Shown here: positions 30,355-39,651 of the stretch, one piece after another
Layout: the number at the start of each line of letters is the position of its first letter
How positions within the stretch are numbered: the stretch's first letter is position 1
NCBI RefSeq assembly: GCF_900141815.1
Contig: NZ_FQYR01000004.1
Coordinates: 124,001-188,000 of the forward strand
Length of the DNA stretch: 64,000 nt
From: Rubritalea squalenifaciens DSM 18772
GTDB lineage: Bacteria; Verrucomicrobiota; Verrucomicrobiia; Verrucomicrobiales; Akkermansiaceae
Direction of reading: 5' to 3'
The notes under the pieces: model-generated
The model's input: the letters and a program-made list of their open reading frames with translations, nothing else
Told to the model about the DNA's origin: nothing
Databases searched by the model: none
Position numbers and translations under genes: made by a program

Positions 30355-31479
30355 ATGTCGCGCCTTGATGATATCCAGAATCTGCTAGACGGTATTGAAG
30401 AAAGACTCGGTGTACGTATCCTGTACGCCGTGGAGTCAGGTAGTCGTGCTTGGGGATTTGCCTCGCCGGACAGTGACTATGATATCCGTTTTATCTATGC
30501 TTGGCCTCAAAGCGAGTATGCCAAGATAGGTGAGGTGCGTGACACCATTGAGCTTCCGATCGAGGATGATCTGGATGCTGGTGGCTGGGATGTGCGTAAG
30601 GCTCTCTCTCTTTTGAAGAAATCAAACGGACCCTTGGTGGAGTGGTTGCACTCGCCAATAGTCTATCGAGCAGAGGAAGGTTTTCTCGATGAGTGGCGAA
30701 GGGTGCTAGGCGAGGTGTTTTCTCCCTATGCACAGGTATGTCACTACCGTGGTCTGGCTCGGCAAATGTGGATGGGGAGCCTGCAGGGTGAAAGCGCCAA
30801 GGCGAAGAGCTATCTCTACTGTTTGCGGGCTACAGCTTGTGCTGAGTGGGTGTTGCAGAGGCAAACTCCACCTCCGGTGGAATTCTCCGAGGTGCGTGAG
30901 GTTCTGCCGGATCGTCTGACGAGTGAGCTGGAGCAGATGCTGGAGGCGAAAGCTCAAAGTGGTGAGAAGGATACAGGAAGGCGTTATGAGGTGATCGATG
31001 CGTATCTGTCTGAAAAATGTTCGGAGAATGGAGGGCTTGAGGAGTTGTCTAAGCCGCCCACGGAGGCGTCAGTGCTGGATGAGCTCTATGTGAAAACGAT
31101 TTCTAAGCCAAAGCATCCAGAGTTACTTTTCAAGGAGAGCTATACACTTGATCGAGTTCGTAAAAAGGACATGCTGGTCTTTGAGGCCGTTGCTGGGAGT
31201 AAGGCATTCGGGACTAATGTAGAGGGTTCAGATGAAGACCTTCGCGGTATTTTTATAGCTCCACCCTTGTTCCATGGTGGGCTGGATCAGATCCAGCAGG
31301 TTCAGGATGCAAAAGGAGATGAGGTGTATTTCGAGCTGGGTCGCGTAGTCGATCTTTTAATCTCTAACAATCCTAACCTGATGGAGCTGCTGGCGATGCC
31401 TGAGGATTGTATTCGTTACCGTCATCCGGTGATGGACTTGCTGAAGCCGGAGTTGTTTCTCTCCAAGCGTTGTGAGTAG
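30355..31479 (+). CDS. RlaP-type nucleotidyltransferase, N-terminal part (first domain plus half of a second)
   Basis: 374 residues up to an amber codon. The first DNA-polymerase-beta-like domain has GSRAWGFASPDSDYDIRF near residues 29-46 (GS helix cap and D-x-D metal site). This fits the YcgL/RlaP family (COG3541), linked by earlier genomic work to RNA-ligase systems. A second domain begins near residue 245 and has its own GSKAFGTNVEGSDEDLRG near 281-298. It then stops at TAG (31477-31479) in the middle of the conserved core. The same frame continues with SFGGYALGQIKKARGLNKK, normal family sequence, into the next entry. So this is one ~611-residue gene broken by a nonsense codon, or one read through. 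It lies 40 bases after ndh. Confidence 0.75.
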   Translation: MSRLDDIQNLLDGIEERLGVRILYAVESGSRAWGFASPDSDYDIRFIYAWPQSEYAKIGEVRDTIELPIEDDLDAGGWDVRKALSLLKKSNGPLVEWLHSPIVYRAEEGFLDEWRRVLGEVFSPYAQVCHYRGLARQMWMGSLQGESAKAKSYLYCLRATACAEWVLQRQTPPPVEFSEVREVLPDRLTSELEQMLEAKAQSGEKDTGRRYEVIDAYLSEKCSENGGLEELSKPPTEASVLDELYVKTISKPKHPELLFKESYTLDRVRKKDMLVFEAVAGSKAFGTNVEGSDEDLRGIFIAPPLFHGGLDQIQQVQDAKGDEVYFELGRVVDLLISNNPNLMELLAMPEDCIRYRHPVMDLLKPELFLSKRCE

Positions 31480-31536: not shown

Positions 31537-32193
31537 GTGATGAATCCTGAGCCCGAGCAGAGAAAGACGCTGAGTGACTTCTGTTACGTGCTTGAGGGGC
31601 AGGGTAGTCGGCCTCTCATGGAGTGGCTGGACGAGCAGGGTATGGATCAAGCTGATTGTGGGTTGGTCGCGGTGAATCACTCGCCGGGGACTTATGCTTT
31701 GTTCCATGACTCTGAGATCCATTATCGTGGCATCTTCTCTCCGAGAGATCCTGATGCGGTGCTATGCAGTAGTGTGCCCAGAGAGGTGAAGCCTGTGGCC
31801 TGGGTGTCTGTCAACGAGGAAGCCTTCAAAGCGCATTGCAAAAACCACGAAGCCTACTGGAAGTGGGTGAAGAATCGCAACGAACAGCGCTACCTCACCA
31901 ATGCCCAGCATGATAAGGGCTATGACTCAAAGAATATGATGCACACGCTTCGCTTGTTAGATATGGCGGAGGAAATCGCGAAGGAGGGTGTGATTCGAGT
32001 CCGTCGCCCCAATCGTGAGTTTCTGCTCAACGTTCGTTCAGGTGCCTACGAGTACAACGAACTGTTGGCGATGGCCGAAGAAAAAATGCAGCGCATCAGT
32101 GAGGCCTACGCCAAGTGTTCTCTCCCTGAGGAAGTAGATCTTGCCAAAGCTGTCGAGCTTCTTGCTGAGATGAGGTCTGTATTTCAGAGGTAG
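31537..32193 (+). CDS. RlaP-type nucleotidyltransferase, C-terminal part after in-frame amber
   Basis: 218 residues from the first GTG/ATG after the amber. In-frame coding sequence actually resumes at 31480. It holds the helical C-terminal half of RlaP: RKTLSDFCYVLEGQGSRPLMEWL, a middle section, and QHDKGYDSKNMMHTLRLLDMAEEI, a conserved helix of this family. On its own it lacks the catalytic GS and D-x-D motifs and would be inactive. Translation from 31537 would be only a fragment; read-through of TAG would restore the second domain. It converges on marC with a 1-base gap. Confidence 0.6.
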   Translation: MMNPEPEQRKTLSDFCYVLEGQGSRPLMEWLDEQGMDQADCGLVAVNHSPGTYALFHDSEIHYRGIFSPRDPDAVLCSSVPREVKPVAWVSVNEEAFKAHCKNHEAYWKWVKNRNEQRYLTNAQHDKGYDSKNMMHTLRLLDMAEEIAKEGVIRVRRPNREFLLNVRSGAYEYNELLAMAEEKMQRISEAYAKCSLPEEVDLAKAVELLAEMRSVFQR

Positions 32194-32839: not shown

Positions 32840-34450
32840 TTATTGGGAGAGTTGGTCGAAGCTGAGGTCGAACTTGGCGAGGTACTTGCGGATGCGGTCG
32901 CCGTCATTGGTTGATTTGCGCTTTTCACGGGAGACGGAGAAGAGCTTGCGGCCGGCTTCGCTCAGGGACTTGCATTGACGGCAGGTCTCGATGACGTAGG
33001 CGAGTTGGGGGCGATCGAAGGGGTCGATCTCCGCGATGGCGTCTGTAGGCAAGTAATCAGAAAGTTTGGCTAGATGGTCGTCTTCCGATCCAGGTCTGAG
33101 CCAGCTTTGCTCGAGGCGTTCGCATTCTTGCTCCACTTCCTCGGTGCGGATTCTGCCGCGCGGAGCGAGAGTGGCCATGCGGGTGACGGCGGCATTGAGA
33201 TCGCGGAAATTGCCACGCCAGCTACTCTTGGGAGATTTGGCGAAATCGAGGAAAGTCTGCTGGGCTTCCTTGTTGAAGGTGATGGTGTTGCCTGTTTTCT
33301 CTCGGTGCCGGCGTAGTTCGTAGTCGAGGTTGGGGGCAATGTCTTCTCGTCGTTCAGCAAGGCCGGGGAGCTGAAAGGTCCAGAGGTTGATGCGAGCCAA
33401 TAGGTCTTCACGAAATCGTCCCTCCGCTACATCGGTCCGGAGATCGCGATTGGTTCCTGCGATGAGTTGGAAGCTGGACTTGACCGGAGTGTCCGAGCCC
33501 ACGGGAAGCCACTTGCCTTCCTCGATGGCACGTAGGAGCACGGCTTGCTCGTCTGGGCCGAGTTCTCCAATTTCATCTAGGAAAAGAAGGCCTTTGTGGG
33601 CTTCACGTAAGAGTCCGGGGCGGTCTGAGGCGGCTCCAGTGAAGGAGCCTTTCTTATGACCGAAGAGGGTGCTCATAGCCATGTCGCCGCGCAGGGTAGC
33701 GCAGTTGACCTCGACAAAATTGCCGCTCAGTCCGCCGCGTTGTTGGCGAAGTTCGAAGATGCGGCTGGCTAGATGGCTCTTGCCCGCTCCAGTAGGACCA
33801 GTCAGAAGGATGGGGGCATCGGAGCGCAGGGCAACGAGTTCGATCTGGTCGATGAGGTAGTTGAATGCTTGGTTCTTTGTGTCGATGCCGGATTTGAGGA
33901 AGTCGCGAGCCTCGGCTTGTTCCTCGGCGAAGCGGGTGGCGAGCTTGTCGTATTTGGAGAGATCCAGATCGATGATCTGGTAGGTGCCTTGCGGCATGTC
34001 GTGGGTGCTGCGCCTGTTAGGCGGGCTCGTCTGGATGAGTTTGCCCGGGAGGTGGCGTGACTCGGCCAGTAGGAAAAGGCAGATCTGGGCCACGTGGGTG
34101 CCCGTGGTCATATGGATGAGAAGGTTTTGCTTCTCGGTGTCAAAGTGGTGACGGCCAGCAAAGCTGTGTAGACTGCCGAATACTTCTTCGAAGTCCCATG
34201 GGTCGTGTAGGTTGATCACCTCCGGGATGACGGTGGTCTCCGGGGAGATTTGTGCGATGTCCTCGGTGACGAGCTTGGCCAGCTTTTTGCTGTGGTTGTC
34301 GTGAATGAGAATCAGCTCATCGATGACCAGATCGTGCTGTTGACACAGAGCCACATTGGGTCGCCATTTGGTCCAGCGGTCGGAGTATTTTCTGTGATCA
34401 AGCTGGGTGCCTAAAAAGCTGATGGCGATATTTTTTTTCACGGCTGGCAT
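32840..34450 (-). CDS. rtcR: RtcR, sigma-54 activator of the RNA-repair operon
   Basis: A 536-residue transcription activator. The N-terminal RtcR/CARF domain (about 1-180) starts KKNIAISFLGTQLDHRKY and contains LLIHMTTGTHVAQI, matching the ligand-sensing fold. In Salmonella this domain senses tRNA fragments ending in 2',3'-cyclic phosphate. The AAA+ domain (about 205-440) has Walker A TGPTGAGKS, the sigma-54-contact loop GSFTGA (Ala of GAFTGA replaced by Ser), Walker B LLFLDEIGE and an Arg-finger region. A C-terminal helix-turn-helix follows (IETCRQCKSLSEAGRKLFSV). It is divergent from the Ro60-Y RNA-rtcBA operon whose sigma-54 promoter it should activate. Confidence 0.95.
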   Translation of the reverse strand: MPAVKKNIAISFLGTQLDHRKYSDRWTKWRPNVALCQQHDLVIDELILIHDNHSKKLAKLVTEDIAQISPETTVIPEVINLHDPWDFEEVFGSLHSFAGRHHFDTEKQNLLIHMTTGTHVAQICLFLLAESRHLPGKLIQTSPPNRRSTHDMPQGTYQIIDLDLSKYDKLATRFAEEQAEARDFLKSGIDTKNQAFNYLIDQIELVALRSDAPILLTGPTGAGKSHLASRIFELRQQRGGLSGNFVEVNCATLRGDMAMSTLFGHKKGSFTGAASDRPGLLREAHKGLLFLDEIGELGPDEQAVLLRAIEEGKWLPVGSDTPVKSSFQLIAGTNRDLRTDVAEGRFREDLLARINLWTFQLPGLAERREDIAPNLDYELRRHREKTGNTITFNKEAQQTFLDFAKSPKSSWRGNFRDLNAAVTRMATLAPRGRIRTEEVEQECERLEQSWLRPGSEDDHLAKLSDYLPTDAIAEIDPFDRPQLAYVIETCRQCKSLSEAGRKLFSVSREKRKSTNDGDRIRKYLAKFDLSFDQLSQ

Positions 34451-34633: not shown

Positions 34634-34650
34634 TTGGCACGGCGGGTGCA
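34634..34650 (+). promoter_or_regulatory. sigma-54 promoter of the Ro60-Y RNA-rtcBA operon
   Basis: TTGGCACGGCGGGTGCA matches TTGGCAC-N5-TTGCA with one mismatch. The GG (34636-34637) and GC (34648-34649) are at exact -24/-12 spacing. Transcription should begin near 34661, leaving a leader of about 106 bases. The divergent gene is the sigma-54 activator rtcR, which makes this assignment strong. Confidence 0.85.
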
Positions 34651-34766: not shown

Positions 34767-36344
34767 ATGGCTAACAAATCATTATTTCAATCCCTGCGCG
34801 GATCCTTATTGCCGCGGACTGACACCGTAAATGGTGCAGGTGGTGTGGCCTACAAGTTGGGCGACGAAGCTGCCTTGGCACAGTATGTGGCAACAGGCTG
34901 CTTGAACGGAACCTTCTACTACAGTGCCGAAGATCAGCTGGAGAAGATCCTGGAGCTGGCTTCCAAAGTGGATGATCTGTTTCTGGCGAAGACTGCGGTC
35001 TATGCGAGAAAGCATGCTTACATGAAAGACACTCCAGCCATCCTGTGCGCGGTCTTGTCTGTGAGAAATGTGGAATTGCTGAAAGAGGTTTTCCCATTAG
35101 TGATCGATAACGGCAAGATGCTGAGAAACTTTGTGCAGATCATGCGCTCCGGTGTGGTGGGTAGAAAGTCCCTGGGTACTGCTTCCAAGAAGTTAGTGCA
35201 GAAGTGGCTGAATACCGCCAGCGACGACAAAATCATGGCAGCGTCCGTAGGTCAGAGCCCGTCTTTGGCAGATGTGATCAAGATGGTTCACGCCAAGCCA
35301 AGTGATAAGAGTCGTGAGGCCTATCTGGGTTATTTGATTGGCCGGGATGTCGAGTTCGATATCTTGCCTGAGAAGGTGAAGGCTTATGAGAGGTGGAAGA
35401 AATTCAGCTTCAGGCCTGTACCGGATGTTCCATTCCAGATGCTGACCGCCCACGAGTTGAGCTGCAAGCAGTGGAGGGGAATCGCAAACAATGCTCCATG
35501 GCATATGACCAGGATGAACCTGAATACTTTTCAGCGTCATGGTGTGCTTGAGTCCAAGGATCTGGTCGAGAAGATCGCGAAGCGTCTGGAGGACGCGGCT
35601 GAGGTGAAGAGAGCGAGAGTGTTCCCTTATCAGCTGATGGCCGCCTACATGAACGTGAACGATGAGATTCCGAACCGAATCAAGGATGCTCTGCAGAACG
35701 CTATGGAAGTAGCTCTGGAGAATGTGCCTGAGTTCACTGGCAATGTGGTGGTCTGTCCTGACTTGTCAGGCTCCATGCATAGCTCGGTGACCGGCTACAG
35801 AAAGGGCGCGACCAGTAAAGTGCGTTGTATCGACGTGGCGGCGCTGGTAGCAGCTGCGATCCTGAAGAAGAATCCAGACGCTACTGTCCTGCCATTCGCT
35901 GGAGATGTCTGCAATGTGAAGCTGAATCCACGGGACTCTATCATGACTAATGCCAAAATCTTGGCCAGTCAGCCAATGGGGGCGACTAACTGTAGTGCGC
36001 CGCTGAAGTGGCTGAACAAGAGGAAGAGCAAGGTTGATATGGTGGTTTACGTTTCAGATAACGAGTCCTGGTTGGATTCCAATCGATGGGGCTACGCAAA
36101 CGGATACGCTACTGCGACCATGCAGGAGTGGGCCGAGCTGAAGCGCCGAAACAAGCATGTGAAGATGGCGTGTATCGACATTACCCCGCATGATGGAACT
36201 CAGGCCAAGTCCCGTGAGGATGTGCTGAACATCGGCGGCTTCTCGGACCATGTGTTCACTTTGTTGTCTCAGTTCTCGAAAGATGAATTGAGTGAAGGTC
36301 ACTGGATCGATGTGATCAACAGTATCGAAATATCTAACAAATAA
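34767..36344 (+). CDS. rsr: Ro60 homologue (TROVE-vWA RNA-binding protein, Rsr)
   Basis: A 525-residue ring-shaped RNA-binding protein. The alpha-helical TROVE/HEAT domain (about 1-315) starts NKSLFQSLRGSLLPRTDTVN and contains LAQYVATGCLNGTFY. A von Willebrand A domain (about 325-525) has an intact MIDAS DLSGS near residue 332, Thr in PMGATNCSAPLKW and Asp in YVSDNES. In bacteria Ro binds Y RNAs on its outer surface and misfolded RNA ends in its central cavity, working with exonucleases in rRNA maturation and decay. The ATG at 34767 is chosen because bacterial homologues begin MANK. Upstream starts at 34695/34698 fall inside the leader hairpin. Five Y RNAs follow immediately. Confidence 0.95.
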   Translation: MANKSLFQSLRGSLLPRTDTVNGAGGVAYKLGDEAALAQYVATGCLNGTFYYSAEDQLEKILELASKVDDLFLAKTAVYARKHAYMKDTPAILCAVLSVRNVELLKEVFPLVIDNGKMLRNFVQIMRSGVVGRKSLGTASKKLVQKWLNTASDDKIMAASVGQSPSLADVIKMVHAKPSDKSREAYLGYLIGRDVEFDILPEKVKAYERWKKFSFRPVPDVPFQMLTAHELSCKQWRGIANNAPWHMTRMNLNTFQRHGVLESKDLVEKIAKRLEDAAEVKRARVFPYQLMAAYMNVNDEIPNRIKDALQNAMEVALENVPEFTGNVVVCPDLSGSMHSSVTGYRKGATSKVRCIDVAALVAAAILKKNPDATVLPFAGDVCNVKLNPRDSIMTNAKILASQPMGATNCSAPLKWLNKRKSKVDMVVYVSDNESWLDSNRWGYANGYATATMQEWAELKRRNKHVKMACIDITPHDGTQAKSREDVLNIGGFSDHVFTLLSQFSKDELSEGHWIDVINSIEISNK

Positions 36345-36371
36345 TAATCTTAAAACTAGAAAGGAAATACT

Positions 36372-36501
36372 TATTGGCGAATGCCTTGAGGATTACATGG
36401 AGACCAGAGGATGTCGGTTCGAATCCGGCCTCAGTCATCGACTGGGTGGAGTGATGGCTGCTCGTTGGTGGATAATCTTCATACATGTTTTGTCGCCAAT
36501 A
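36372..36501 (+). ncRNA. Y RNA 1 (YrlA-like, tRNA mimic)
   Basis: Ends pair over nine bases (TATTGGCGA / TCGCCAATA). The Ro-type 5' strand motif CGAATGCC-N4-GGATTACAT and 3' motif TTTGTCG are present. Inside lies a permuted tRNA. T-arm 36413-36429 (GTCGG, loop TTCGAAT, CCGGC). Acceptor-like stem CTCAGTC / GACTGGG closed by a three-base loop. Two-base linker TG. D-arm GAGT / GCTC whose loop keeps a GG pair. The anticodon arm is replaced by the Y stem. It starts 27 bases after the Ro60 stop. Confidence 0.85.
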
Positions 36502-36518
36502 CTGACTAGAGACAAATT

Positions 36519-36657
36519 TACATCGAATGCCTGTGGAACTACATCCCTTCTGGAGGACGAGGTCGTGGGTTCGAATCCCACCCGGGCTCGCCAATAATAT
36601 GGCCCGGTAGCTCAGTTCGGTAGAGCGCGTAAACGTTTCACATCTTTTGTCGATGTA
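36519..36657 (+). ncRNA. Y RNA 2 (YrlA-like, tRNA mimic)
   Basis: Terminal stem TACATCGA / TCGATGTA. 5' motif CGAATGCC-N4-GAACTACAT, 3' motif TTTGTCG. The clearest tRNA mimic of the set. T-arm 36565-36581 (GTGGG, TTCGAAT, CCCAC). Acceptor CCGGGCT / GGCCCGG joined by a 12-base A/T-rich loop. TA linker. D-arm GCTC-AGTTCGGTA-GAGC at 36610-36626, identical in layout to real tRNAs. The order T-acceptor-D rules out an ordinary tRNA gene. The terminal stem has different bases from unit 1 but stays paired, so the pairing is conserved by covariation. Confidence 0.87.
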
Positions 36658-36671
36658 TCCATTTTCACCCC

Positions 36672-36791
36672 TGGCGAATGCCTTGAGGACTACATTTAAT
36701 CTATTGGTCGTTGGTTCGAGTCCAACCACAGCTCAAGCTGTGTAGCTCAGTTAGGTAGAGCAGTAGCACGTCTTCATCAACCTTGTCGCCA
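36672..36791 (+). ncRNA. Y RNA 3 (YrlA-like, tRNA mimic)
   Basis: Terminal stem TGGCGA / TCGCCA. 5' motif CGAATGCC-N4-GGACTACAT, 3' motif CCTTGTCG. T-arm 36710-36726 (GTTGG, TTCGAGT, CCAAC). Acceptor stem CACAGC-TCAA-GCTGTG closed by a tetraloop. TA linker. D-arm GCTC-AGTTAGGTA-GAGC at 36745-36761 with the GG pair needed for T-loop contact. Confidence 0.87.
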
Positions 36792-36806
36792 TTCCATTAA
36801 TATTTC

Positions 36807-36937
36807 GCACCGAATGCCAGCGGAACTACATCATTCTGATTGACGTATTGTGGGTTCGAATCCCGCCCGGGAGCCCAGCGCTTCTCGGTAGTGTAAAAGG
36901 TAACACGCGAGCGAGTTTCACTAACCCTTGTCGGTGC
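36807..36937 (+). ncRNA. Y RNA 4 (YrlA-like, tRNA mimic)
   Basis: Terminal stem GCACCGA / TCGGTGC, again changed in both strands. 5' motif CGAATGCC-N4-GAACTACAT, 3' motif CCTTGTCG. T-arm 36850-36866 (GTGGG, TTCGAAT, CCCGC). Acceptor CCGGGAG / TTCTCGG with wobble pairs. TA linker. D-arm GTGT-AAAAGGTA-ACAC at 36891-36906. The D-stem differs from GCTC/GAGC on both sides, which is compensatory change and supports a selected structure. Confidence 0.85.
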
Positions 36938-36956
36938 ACCCTATTTCCAAAATCTC

Positions 36957-37050
36957 GGCGAATGCCGGCAGGACTACATCAGGTTATAGCTGGTTCAAAT
37001 CCAGCCCTGTGACGCGAGTTGCAGTGAAGCTCTTGCCAGATCTTGTCGCC
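36957..37050 (+). ncRNA. Y RNA 5 (short, lacks the D-arm)
   Basis: Terminal stem GGCGA / TCGCC. 5' motif CGAATGCC-N4-GGACTACAT, 3' motif TCTTGTCG. T-arm 36989-37005 (GCTGG, TTCAAAT, CCAGC) and acceptor-like stem CTGTGAC-GCGA-GTTGCAG are kept. The D-arm seen in the other four is missing, making this one 94 bases long. It ends 31 bases before the rtcB start. Confidence 0.8.
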
Positions 37051-37081: not shown

Positions 37082-38563
37082 ATGATTCACGTAACAGAAG
37101 AAGCAGTCGGGTTTATTCCTGCTAGAAATACATCACTCACTCCGATCACGGTGATCGGGACGGAGGCGATCCGAGACGGGTTTGACGGTACTTGTATCGC
37201 GCAGGCTCTGAACTCTAGGGAGGCTCCGGGAGTTTCCGAGCTAGTGCTTAACCCGGATGCCCATGCGGGCTACGGCGCGCCAGTGGGATGTGTGATGGTG
37301 TCACCGACGCATATTTATCCAGGACCAGTAGGTGTGGATATCAAGTGCTCCATGTCACTCCTGCAGACGGATGTGCATGAAGATGATATCCGTGACAAAA
37401 CGGTCCGTAGAGAGCTGATTGAGGCGATCTGCGAGCGTACTCCGACAGGTGCGGGGAAGTCCCAGAGATCTGTGGCAAAAGGCCGTGTGATCACCGAAGA
37501 GCTGGGCCGCAAGATTTGCATCGAAGGTGCATCCGTGGAGGTCTGCGAGGCTCTGGGGATTCCGCCTGAGTGGGCGGAGCGATGTGAGGACAGCTCTCAT
37601 CGTGGTCACGACCGTACTACGGAAGCATTGGCGAAGCGGCTTGAGGTACTTTTCGAGAACAACAAGTTCAAGGAAAGGTTCCCGGGCAAGATGCGCCAGC
37701 TGGGTACTTACGGTGGTGGAAACCATTTCGGCGAGGCCGAGATAGTGGATATCGTGAATACGCCTGAGGCGAAGCGTGCGGCGGAAGTCTTTGGGCTTAA
37801 GCAAGATCACGTGGCTTTCCTTTCTCACTGCGGGTCCCGTGGACTGGGTCATGACCTCGCGTCGAACCAGTTCAAGGTGTTAGAAAAGATGTTCGATACC
37901 TGGGGGACTCCGTATCCGGCTGACGACAAGAAGCTGGTCTACGCCCCGCTAGGGACGCAAGAGGCCAGCGACTACCTTGATGACATGGCCATCGCCGCGA
38001 ACTTTGCGACGGTGAACCATATGCTCATCAACGCTCTGGTGTTAGAGGCCTTCCAGGAGGTGCTTCCGGGAACTATGGGGAACCTCGTGTACTTCATTTC
38101 CCATAACATCGCGCGGCATGAGAAGGTTCGGGACAAGTTCCAGTGGGTTCACCGTAAGGGAGCCACACGTGCCTTCCCGGCGGGTCACTTTGCGCTCAAG
38201 GAGACGCCTTTCTACGAGACGGGTCACCCGATTCTCCTACCGGGGAATCCGAGGGACGGTTCGATGGTGATGGCGGCTCTGCCTGGTGCTGAAAAGTCCT
38301 GCTACTCCGTGAATCACGGTGCAGGGAGAAGCATGGGGAGAAGGGCAGCCTTCCGAAATCTCGACCAGAAGACGGTGGATGCAGACTTCGAGGACTACGA
38401 CATCTTGCATAACAGCCGTGCCTACCCGAGGGATGAAGCGCCGGATGCGTACAAGGACTTCCAGGAGGTGTTGGCATCGGTGGAAAAAGCCGGCCTGGCT
38501 CACGGAGTGGCGAGACTCAAGGCTCGTTTCGTGATCAAGGACGCCAGTAAAGCCGACGACTGA
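37082..38563 (+). CDS. rtcB: RNA-splicing/repair ligase RtcB
   Basis: A 493-residue GTP- and Mn-dependent ligase that joins 2',3'-cyclic-phosphate or 3'-phosphate ends to 5'-OH ends. Motifs in order: NPDAHAGYGAPVG, metal-binding Cys in GVDIKCSMSL near residue 88, GGGNHFGEAEIV, LSHCGSRGLGH, and the guanylated His in NHGAGRSMGRR near residue 411. Family length is about 400-480, with variation in the middle. A poor ribosome site (AAACAGAAAA) precedes the ATG, so translation may depend on how the upstream Y RNA 5 folds or is processed. Confidence 0.95.
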   Translation: MIHVTEEAVGFIPARNTSLTPITVIGTEAIRDGFDGTCIAQALNSREAPGVSELVLNPDAHAGYGAPVGCVMVSPTHIYPGPVGVDIKCSMSLLQTDVHEDDIRDKTVRRELIEAICERTPTGAGKSQRSVAKGRVITEELGRKICIEGASVEVCEALGIPPEWAERCEDSSHRGHDRTTEALAKRLEVLFENNKFKERFPGKMRQLGTYGGGNHFGEAEIVDIVNTPEAKRAAEVFGLKQDHVAFLSHCGSRGLGHDLASNQFKVLEKMFDTWGTPYPADDKKLVYAPLGTQEASDYLDDMAIAANFATVNHMLINALVLEAFQEVLPGTMGNLVYFISHNIARHEKVRDKFQWVHRKGATRAFPAGHFALKETPFYETGHPILLPGNPRDGSMVMAALPGAEKSCYSVNHGAGRSMGRRAAFRNLDQKTVDADFEDYDILHNSRAYPRDEAPDAYKDFQEVLASVEKAGLAHGVARLKARFVIKDASKADD

Positions 38564-38646: not shown

Positions 38647-39651
38647 ATGATTCAAATTAACGGACAAGACGGAGGCGGGCAGGTTTTGCGCTCGGCACTA
38701 TCGCTTTCGATGGTGACGGGAGAGCCGTTCCGGATGGTGAATATCCGGGGCAAGCGGCCCAAGCCGGGACTGAAGCGTCAGCATCTGACCTGCGTGCAGG
38801 CGGCTGCGGCGATTTGTGATGCCGAGGTGGGGGGAGTGGAGATGAACTCGACATCCATCACCTTTACTCCGGGAGCAGTAAAGCACGGGGAGTATGCCTT
38901 CGCGATTGGCTCCGCGGGTAGCACGACGCTGGTATTCCAGACTCTTTTGCCTGCGCTCATGTTGGCGGATGGAGAGAGTGTGGTGAAGGTGGAAGGGGGG
39001 ACTCATAATCCCATGGCTCCATCAGCTGATTTCATTAGCAAGGTGTTCCTGCCTGCCGCTGCGAAGTGGGGCGTGAATGCCGAGATGACTTGCGAGCGCG
39101 TGGGTTTTGCGCCTGCAGGTGGCGGGAGGGTTGTTTCCAGAATCAGACCTTCAATTCTAACACCTCATGATCTAACCGAGCGTGGAGAGATTCAGCGTAA
39201 AGAGATCACCTCCATGGTGGTGGGGATTTCCGGAGAAATCATGAAGCGTGAGGTGAAGGCCGCACAGAAGAAGCTGGTGTGGGAGGATGCTGAGATTGTG
39301 CTCGAACAGGTGAATGATGCCGACGGTACGGGGAATTGCTTCGCCGTGCACGTGGACTTCGCCAACCTGAGTGACCGTTTTACTGAGTACGGCTCCTATG
39401 GAGTATCTTCTGAACGAGTTGCTGGCAATGCGGCCAAGAATGTGAAGCGCCACCTCTCCAGTGAGGCTGCTGTGAGCGAGCATCTGGCGGATCAGCTTAT
39501 CCTGCCGATGGCTCTGGCCGGGGCAGGCTCGTTTACGGTGCGTCGTCTAACCAATCACCTGAAGACTAATATCGCAGTCGTGCACAAGTTCCTCGATGTC
39601 CGTTTTGAGGTGGAGGAACTTGAGGGAGTGATCAGAGTGGGAGTGGCTTAG
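38647..39651 (+). CDS. rtcA: RNA 3'-terminal phosphate cyclase RtcA
   Basis: A 334-residue enzyme that converts RNA 3'-phosphates to 2',3'-cyclic phosphates through an adenylated-His intermediate. It can thereby recreate RtcB substrates. Signature features: INGQDGGGQVLRSALSLS at the N-terminus, KVEGGTHNPMAPSADF in the middle, and the C-terminal TNHLKTNIAVV with the adenylated His near residue 303. An in-line insert domain spans about residues 180-275. Last gene of the operon; its stop overlaps the convergent PDZ gene end by four bases. Confidence 0.95.
   Translation: MIQINGQDGGGQVLRSALSLSMVTGEPFRMVNIRGKRPKPGLKRQHLTCVQAAAAICDAEVGGVEMNSTSITFTPGAVKHGEYAFAIGSAGSTTLVFQTLLPALMLADGESVVKVEGGTHNPMAPSADFISKVFLPAAAKWGVNAEMTCERVGFAPAGGGRVVSRIRPSILTPHDLTERGEIQRKEITSMVVGISGEIMKREVKAAQKKLVWEDAEIVLEQVNDADGTGNCFAVHVDFANLSDRFTEYGSYGVSSERVAGNAAKNVKRHLSSEAAVSEHLADQLILPMALAGAGSFTVRRLTNHLKTNIAVVHKFLDVRFEVEELEGVIRVGVA

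Follow-up and report, generated by a model that had tools for sequence, protein, structure and literature searches.

In the window, the whole stretch of 64,000 nucleotides of Rubritalea squalenifaciens DSM 18772 analysed here, an RNA-repair operon predicted to be under rtcR/sigma-54 control holds an array of Y RNAs, its order being ro60, five Y RNAs, rtcB and rtcA. The five Y RNAs share one base, composed of the P1 stem and the CGAAUGCC...ACUACAU and UUGUCG core, and carry five different heads. These heads may be class-typed adaptors, each offering its own kind of tRNA top to tRNA-handling enzymes while damaged tRNA is repaired, a reading drawn from sequence comparison to which we would assign a probability of roughly 45%.

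The regulatory gene rtcR (32840-34450, minus strand) is divergent from the operon and encodes a sigma-54 activator with a CARF-type sensor domain, scoring 792.6 bits on the NCBIfam RtcR model (cut-off 650) and matching the Pfam families RtcR and Sigma54_activat. All 20 of the array-bearing relatives that were examined for it also have the gene. A consensus scan located a predicted sigma-54-type promoter, TGGCACGGCGGGTGCA (34635-34650, plus strand, one mismatch), 132 bp 5′ of ro60, and a site of this type was detected by consensus scan no more than 500 bp upstream of Ro60 in 12 of 30 relatives, the window included, as against 1 of 90 control slices taken within the Ro60 gene. The ro60/rsr gene (34767-36344, plus strand) codes for a protein with TROVE and vWA domains (Pfam vWA_Ro60 1.2e-17 and TROVE 6.2e-8, both past the Pfam cut-offs) and with a DLSGS MIDAS-like motif in the translation. 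Its top PDB match is 2nvo, the Deinococcus Rsr (E=1.1e-26, residues 18-507), and its score on the NCBIfam Rsr equivalog is 102.8 bits, below the cut-off of 900, so that by its sequence the protein is placed as a homologue outside this narrow equivalog. The first base of the array lies 27 bases past the ro60 stop codon, and a scan of the array for internal terminators and sigma-70 promoters between the units yielded none above chance. The remaining genes are those of the RNA ligase RtcB (37082-38563, plus strand; Pfam RtcB 346 bits, PDB RtcB E=1.4e-61) and of the RNA 3′-phosphate cyclase RtcA (38647-39651, plus strand; NCBIfam RNA_3prim_cycl 354 bits, cut-off 250). The window also contains a gene of the RlaP family (RNA repair nucleotidyltransferase), at 30355-31479 and 31537-32193, split by an in-frame stop that is either a mutation or a sequencing error; in five relatives, the region matching its second half falls within one uninterrupted frame of about 617-668 aa, and in a sixth within one of 366 aa.

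A sequence-only reading of this DNA had placed five Y RNAs of the YrlA type in the gap from ro60 to rtcB, at 36372-37050, and this is borne out by Rfam YrlA matches and by covariation. The 5′ block described there, CGAATGCC-N4-G(G/A)A(C/T)TACAT, has exactly five copies in the whole window of 64 kb, all of them on the plus strand and none on the minus strand, with starts at 36378, 36524, 36675, 36811 and 36959 and thus spacings of 146, 151, 136 and 148 bases. The units are 94-139 bases long, as had been given, and all five copies have the reported TTGTCG near the 3′ end and complementary ends, which pair over 5-9 bp. The proposed search with a YrlA covariance model was run, and Rfam RF02553 matches all five units end to end, with 86.5 bits for Y3, 74.5 for Y2, 53.3 for Y4, 40.1 for Y5 and 31.0 for Y1 (E-values of 8e-20, 2e-16, 3e-10, 2e-6 and 9e-4, respectively, in a 6-kb search). 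The gathering cut-off of 69 bits is passed by Y2 and Y3 only, and tandem tRNA pairs of the host genome reach 34-41 bits on the same model, so Y1 and Y5 are assigned to the family by their core motif, their P1 and the place where they lie. Our own model, trained on 31 units, gives the five window units 55-112 bits; as these five were among the units used for training, the independent scores are those of Rfam. An earlier model, R1, missed P2 owing to a slip of the sequence alignment in that helix, and served for unit finding only. Several further candidates were rejected. Weak YrlA matches elsewhere in the genome proved to be tandem tRNA-Asp, -Gly and -Arg pairs, and thus all five YrlA copies found in the genome sit in the array. 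ARAGORN reported no tRNA in the window, and a tmRNA match at 36564 (16 bits) is merely a T-arm. An antisense ORF at 36334-36729 was not accepted as a gene as it carries GLEPTT/GIRTHDL peptides, which we take to be typical of spurious translation of the strand opposite a tRNA.

Each unit is built from the terminal P1, a P2 of about 7-8 bp directly inside, with one mismatch in Y4 and one unpaired end in Y5, and then the head. P1 pairs in all five units and covaries, and the core is of the Ro60 type, with predicted binding of Ro60. The circularly permuted order of T-arm, acceptor and D-arm claimed for the heads holds for Y1-Y4, once the helices are written out: these heads correspond to a tRNA in which the acceptor end is closed and the opening lies at the anticodon, the equivalent of the anticodon stem being paired as well in Y1 and Y3. 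Y1 (36372-36501, plus strand; 81.8 bits on our own model as a training-set member) has an initiator-type head and comprises P1 36375-36380/36493-36498, P2 36387-36394/36474-36481, the anticodon-stem equivalent 36403-36407/36465-36469, the T-stem 36413-36417/36425-36429, the acceptor 36430-36436/36440-36446 and the D-stem GAGT/GCTC 36449-36452/36460-36463, with A11:U24 and G as base 9. Its acceptor is fully paired, with no 1:72 mismatch, it is unlike host fMet at many positions, and its cloverleaf lies about 6 kcal/mol above its own computed minimum. The next three heads are elongator-type. In Y2 (36519-36657, plus strand), the T-stem at 36565-36569/36577-36581 is followed by a 7-bp acceptor (36582-36588/36601-36607), with GCCA just within its loop, and by the D-stem GCTC/GAGC (36610-36613/36623-36626). 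Y3 (36671-36795, plus strand), the best Rfam match of the genome, has its T-stem at 36710-36714/36722-36726, a 6-bp acceptor at 36727-36732/36737-36742 and the D-stem GCTC/GAGC at 36745-36748/36758-36761. The D-stem of Y4 (36807-36937, plus strand) is GTGT/ACAC (36891-36894/36903-36906), and its D region is nearest to tRNA-Gln(ttg) (GTGTAA..GGTAACAC) among the 36 different host tRNAs. It was also correctly seen that four units have a D-arm: the head of Y5 (36957-37050, plus strand) consists of a T-arm (36989-36993/37001-37005) and an acceptor-like hairpin (37006-37025), and since the D-arm is absent, Y5 is classed here as a minihelix-headed Y RNA and not as a full tRNA mimic.

Structural covariation, on which the first proposal had staked itself, was found to be strong across relatives. 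In an alignment of 31 units from 12 loci, made by sequence only, the covariation score is 0.615 compared with 0.159 after shuffling, a value reached by 0 of 500 shuffles; 95.8% of the cells pair (71.1% when shuffled), and two-sided changes are present in 17 of 21 pairs. When one strand is slid by 1-3 columns, pairing falls from 96% to 36-54%. Dead or neutral debris of tandem tRNA genes would agree with the low Rfam scores of Y1 (31 bits) and Y5 (40 bits) and with the resemblance of the units to tRNA gene junctions, but the strong covariation, the presence of the same Ro60-type core in five copies and conservation across phyla make this reading of the array very improbable.

The copy number was compared across relatives, and the earlier view that five copies in one operon are unusual was thereby refuted. 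The 69 loci listed, with 273 units, belong nearly all to Verrucomicrobiota with Ro60 and hold a median of 4 units (range 1-9), the unit counts being lower bounds where contigs end or units diverge, and these copy numbers, like the class counts below, being drawn mostly from one order. Of 289 genomes sampled across the order, 46 have a Ro60 relative. Within the family, our own model finds matches in 38 of the 172 genomes of good quality, although a few of the weakest, partial matches, from one genus, may be tandem tRNAs. In Alphaproteobacteria, 3-5 units were found in a matching rtcR/Ro60/gap/rtcB layout, and plasmids of Rhizobium and Methylosinus and one Novosphingobium plasmid carry 3-5 units behind the same Ro60 gene (4-5 on the rhizobial plasmids). 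On a contig from the viral collection IMG/VR, the gene of a Ro60 relative precedes three Y RNA-like units, of which one is full-headed (L212 4329-4621). In 2014, Chen and colleagues reportedly described probable Y RNAs close to Ro60 for over 250 species, every one of which had one or more that resemble tRNA; neither multi-copy loci nor the mimicry of tRNA is therefore new in itself. Relative to our incomplete coverage of the Y RNA literature, it is the division of the heads into classes that looks new.

The heads of the 273 units, parsed by our own rules and in part by eye, are distributed as 133 elongator-type, 66 plain hairpins, 24 minihelices, 19 initiator-type, 12 leucine-type and 19 unclassed. 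Position 11 of the D-stem is a pyrimidine in elongator tRNAs, and the initiator tRNAs of bacteria carry the pair A11:U24; among host tRNAs, A11 occurs in fMet only, an apparent G11 in Ser(cga) being an artefact of a one-base offset in the ARAGORN start. Of the 149 heads that were parsed, 129 have C:G as their 11:24 pair, 17 have A:U, 3 have U:A and none has G:C. From the A11:U24 tally, L206 unit 2 was dropped as a misparse, and inspection by eye added L092 unit 1, L136 unit 2 and L053 unit 6 to the class. The 19 initiator-type units come from 19 loci and include window Y1 (TGGAGTGATGGCTGCTC) and a unit from another genome of the same genus (L130). Furthermore, 14 of the 16 A11:U24 units with a correct parse have G as base 9, which lies outside the D-stem, and 129 of the 132 other heads have A there. 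The leucine-type D-arm, [TC]GCGGAA..ACGC, is present in 12 units, and an extra hairpin before the T-arm, at the position of the class II variable arm, accompanies it in 11 of them as against 37 of 149 other units (Fisher p=6e-6, which overstates independence because the units are related); under a stricter 4-bp hairpin rule the counts are 6 of 12 and 5 of 149. The minihelix class, with T-arm and acceptor and without D-arm, includes window Y5. Of the 69 arrays, 43 contain plain hairpins on the same base core, and none of the five window units is of this kind.

Some individual heads were recorded apart from these classes. L154 unit 2 has an Arg(cct)-like D-arm (TAGTTCA..GATAGAAC) and L211 unit 3 a Ser/Tyr-like one (TGGCCGAGTGGTC). 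There is also a second permutation register, in which heads opened at the D-loop keep an anticodon-arm-like hairpin (GGTAGAGC ... arm ... T-arm, acceptor, TAGCTCAG); it was identified by script at L052 3502-3630 and L216 6046-6178 and by eye at L219 6029-6162, L217 5896-6023 and L215 5997-6116. An Acidobacteria unit of this register has the arm TTGAT-tgaaaa-ATCAA.

In order to follow the descent of the classes, a tree was built with the acceptor and the D-arm masked; it is poorly resolved, with many forks open. Class labels cluster by descent even when the parts that define the classes are masked, the leucine label changing once on this tree (shuffled mean 11.7) and the initiator label three times (shuffled mean 15.5). 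As judged from these comparisons, the head classes look like old paralogues and not like recent copies. In one genus the order plain, initiator, elongator, mini, elongator, elongator, Leu recurs in two loci (L135, L136), and, with differences, in three more (L132, L137, L138); the order in the window is initiator, elongator, elongator, elongator, mini. Recent local duplication is unsupported for the window, as its units stand apart in the poorly resolved masked tree, where Y2 groups with units of other genomes (L151_2, L052_3, L152_4, L153_4) and not with its neighbours. The suggestion that the copies are specialised thus stands in so far as distinct tRNA classes are inherited as separate paralogues; the other part of it, that the heads are gates for different RNA targets or enzymes, is something we infer and would word as a possibility.

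A competing explanation is that only the generic tRNA shape matters, the heads tethering Ro60 to PNPase (RYPER) or gating the Ro60 cavity, the copies serving dosage and the classes going back to ancient tRNA captures. Elongator-type heads do dominate (133 of 273); the initiator and leucine classes come mainly from one family and are missing from many arrays, and many arrays have elongator, minihelix and plain heads only. PNPase tethering is also the bacterial mechanism demonstrated in the accessible literature (review PMC8394870). The YrlA model also picks up genuine tandem tRNAs, since the junction of such a pair consists of T-arm, acceptor 3′ strand, spacer, acceptor 5′ strand and D-arm, which makes capture from tRNA gene junctions plausible. 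Related to this, in one head subfamily the acceptor loop starts with N-CCA, resembling a tRNA 3′ end, in 14 cases, largely orthologues, compared with 2.7 expected from shuffled loops. Given the junction matches and this enrichment, it is reasonable to infer that Y RNA heads were captured from tandem tRNA genes. The class split could itself stem from old tRNA captures, kept only as paired stems stay paired, and a conserved class label does not imply a selected function. Against the generic shape, however, initiator and leucine units are separate old paralogues across genera, with a recurring order in one genus, and the leucine D-arm type and the variable-arm hairpin co-occur, and we consider this explanation rather unlikely. 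Tandem-tRNA matches to RF02553 were checked in this genome, and those in many other genomes of the phylum and in control species are probably alike; weak RF02553 matches with no Ro60 neighbour should not be taken as Y RNAs.

Three genomes show the head on another base. In one of them (G566), from the genus of the window, no TROVE gene was detected, and the operon (L131 64-3932) consists of rtcR, a Y-like RNA with an intact elongator head, a gene for a 695-aa protein and rtcB. The Ro60-type core of this RNA is gone, and GGCTATG..CTTCCTTC and GCTTTCC flank the head instead. The same base motifs occur in two other genomes, G190 (L098 4779-7090) and G574 (L163 1-500, partly diverged), where the Y-like RNAs adjoin homologues of the 695-aa protein. 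The G566 protein has no Pfam match, and one homologue gives a TerD domain match (8.7e-5); the AlphaFold model of the protein replacing Ro60 is weak (pLDDT 35 for the single sequence, 59 with 4 sequences), and a Foldseek search yielded no usable match. A further homologue, in G183 (L233), is divergent from an RtcR-like gene, and no RNA there matched the model. Because all three genomes keep the tRNA head with a replaced core, they support the view that base and head behave as separate modules. Slightly less confidently than the adaptor role of the heads, it can be proposed that the arrays are maintained panels of tRNA-class mimics (initiator, leucine, elongator, top half), each taking Ro60 to, or shielding, a different enzyme or tRNA class, with a swappable base that would have been re-matched to a TerD-like protein family instead of Ro60.

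According to the preferred reading, that of class-typed adaptors, tRNA cleavage would activate RtcR, which in other species is switched on by tRNA fragments with a 2′,3′-cyclic phosphate (PMC7790460). One long transcript would then be cut into separate Y RNAs, Ro60 would hold the Y RNA base, and the different heads would allow Ro60 particles to engage tRNA-recognising proteins of modification, repair, processing or decay by tRNA class. For YrlA, work in other species has shown modification by DusA and TruB as well as tethering of Rsr to PNPase (review PMC8394870). Ro60 would thus be drawn into the metabolism of damaged tRNAs by a small panel of class-typed adaptors and not by one generic adaptor. 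tRNA decay and nuclease inhibition have been raised as mere possibilities for the tRNA-like head of Y RNAs (PMC7790460). Alternatively, the heads could be decoys competing with tRNAs for tRNA-cleaving nucleases or toxins made during damage, with each class shielding a different tRNA. Class-typed heads would suit class-specific nucleases, toxins cutting initiator tRNA exist (VapC, cited in PMC7790460), and the tRNA-like domain of YrlA, itself uncut, was suggested as a possible competitive inhibitor of an anticodon nuclease (Hughes et al., PMC7790460). Yet the permutation removes the anticodon loop in the window, so only nucleases reading the tRNA body could be fooled, and we regard decoys as improbable, more so than an effect of generic shape. 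If the heads are typed by tRNA class, as in the adaptor reading, the role of the tRNA-like head becomes directly testable through head swaps, for which multi-Y-RNA arrays in culturable relatives (e.g. Persicirhabdus) are natural comparison sets.

Compared with known systems, the window heads resemble circularly permuted and tandem tRNA genes, in being likewise a tRNA opened at the anticodon and in that tandem pairs match YrlA, but they differ in having neither an anticodon loop nor a free 3′ end, and ARAGORN sees no tRNA in them. The likeness to the Deinococcus RYPER (Rsr-Y RNA-PNPase) is one of protein comparison only, the window Ro60 being closest in the PDB to Deinococcus Rsr. The plain hairpins of the relatives' arrays, which have the same base core, may be counterparts of Salmonella YrlB and plain Y RNAs. 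The operon logic, the base core and the permuted T-arm/acceptor/D-arm head are the same as in the Salmonella rsr-yrlBA-rtcBA operon and its YrlA (RF02553). On the other hand, the Salmonella yrlB-yrlA pair is replaced by five units in the window, and, unlike in Salmonella YrlA, the heads include initiator-type and minihelix forms in the window, with Y5 built without a D-arm, and leucine-type forms in its relatives.
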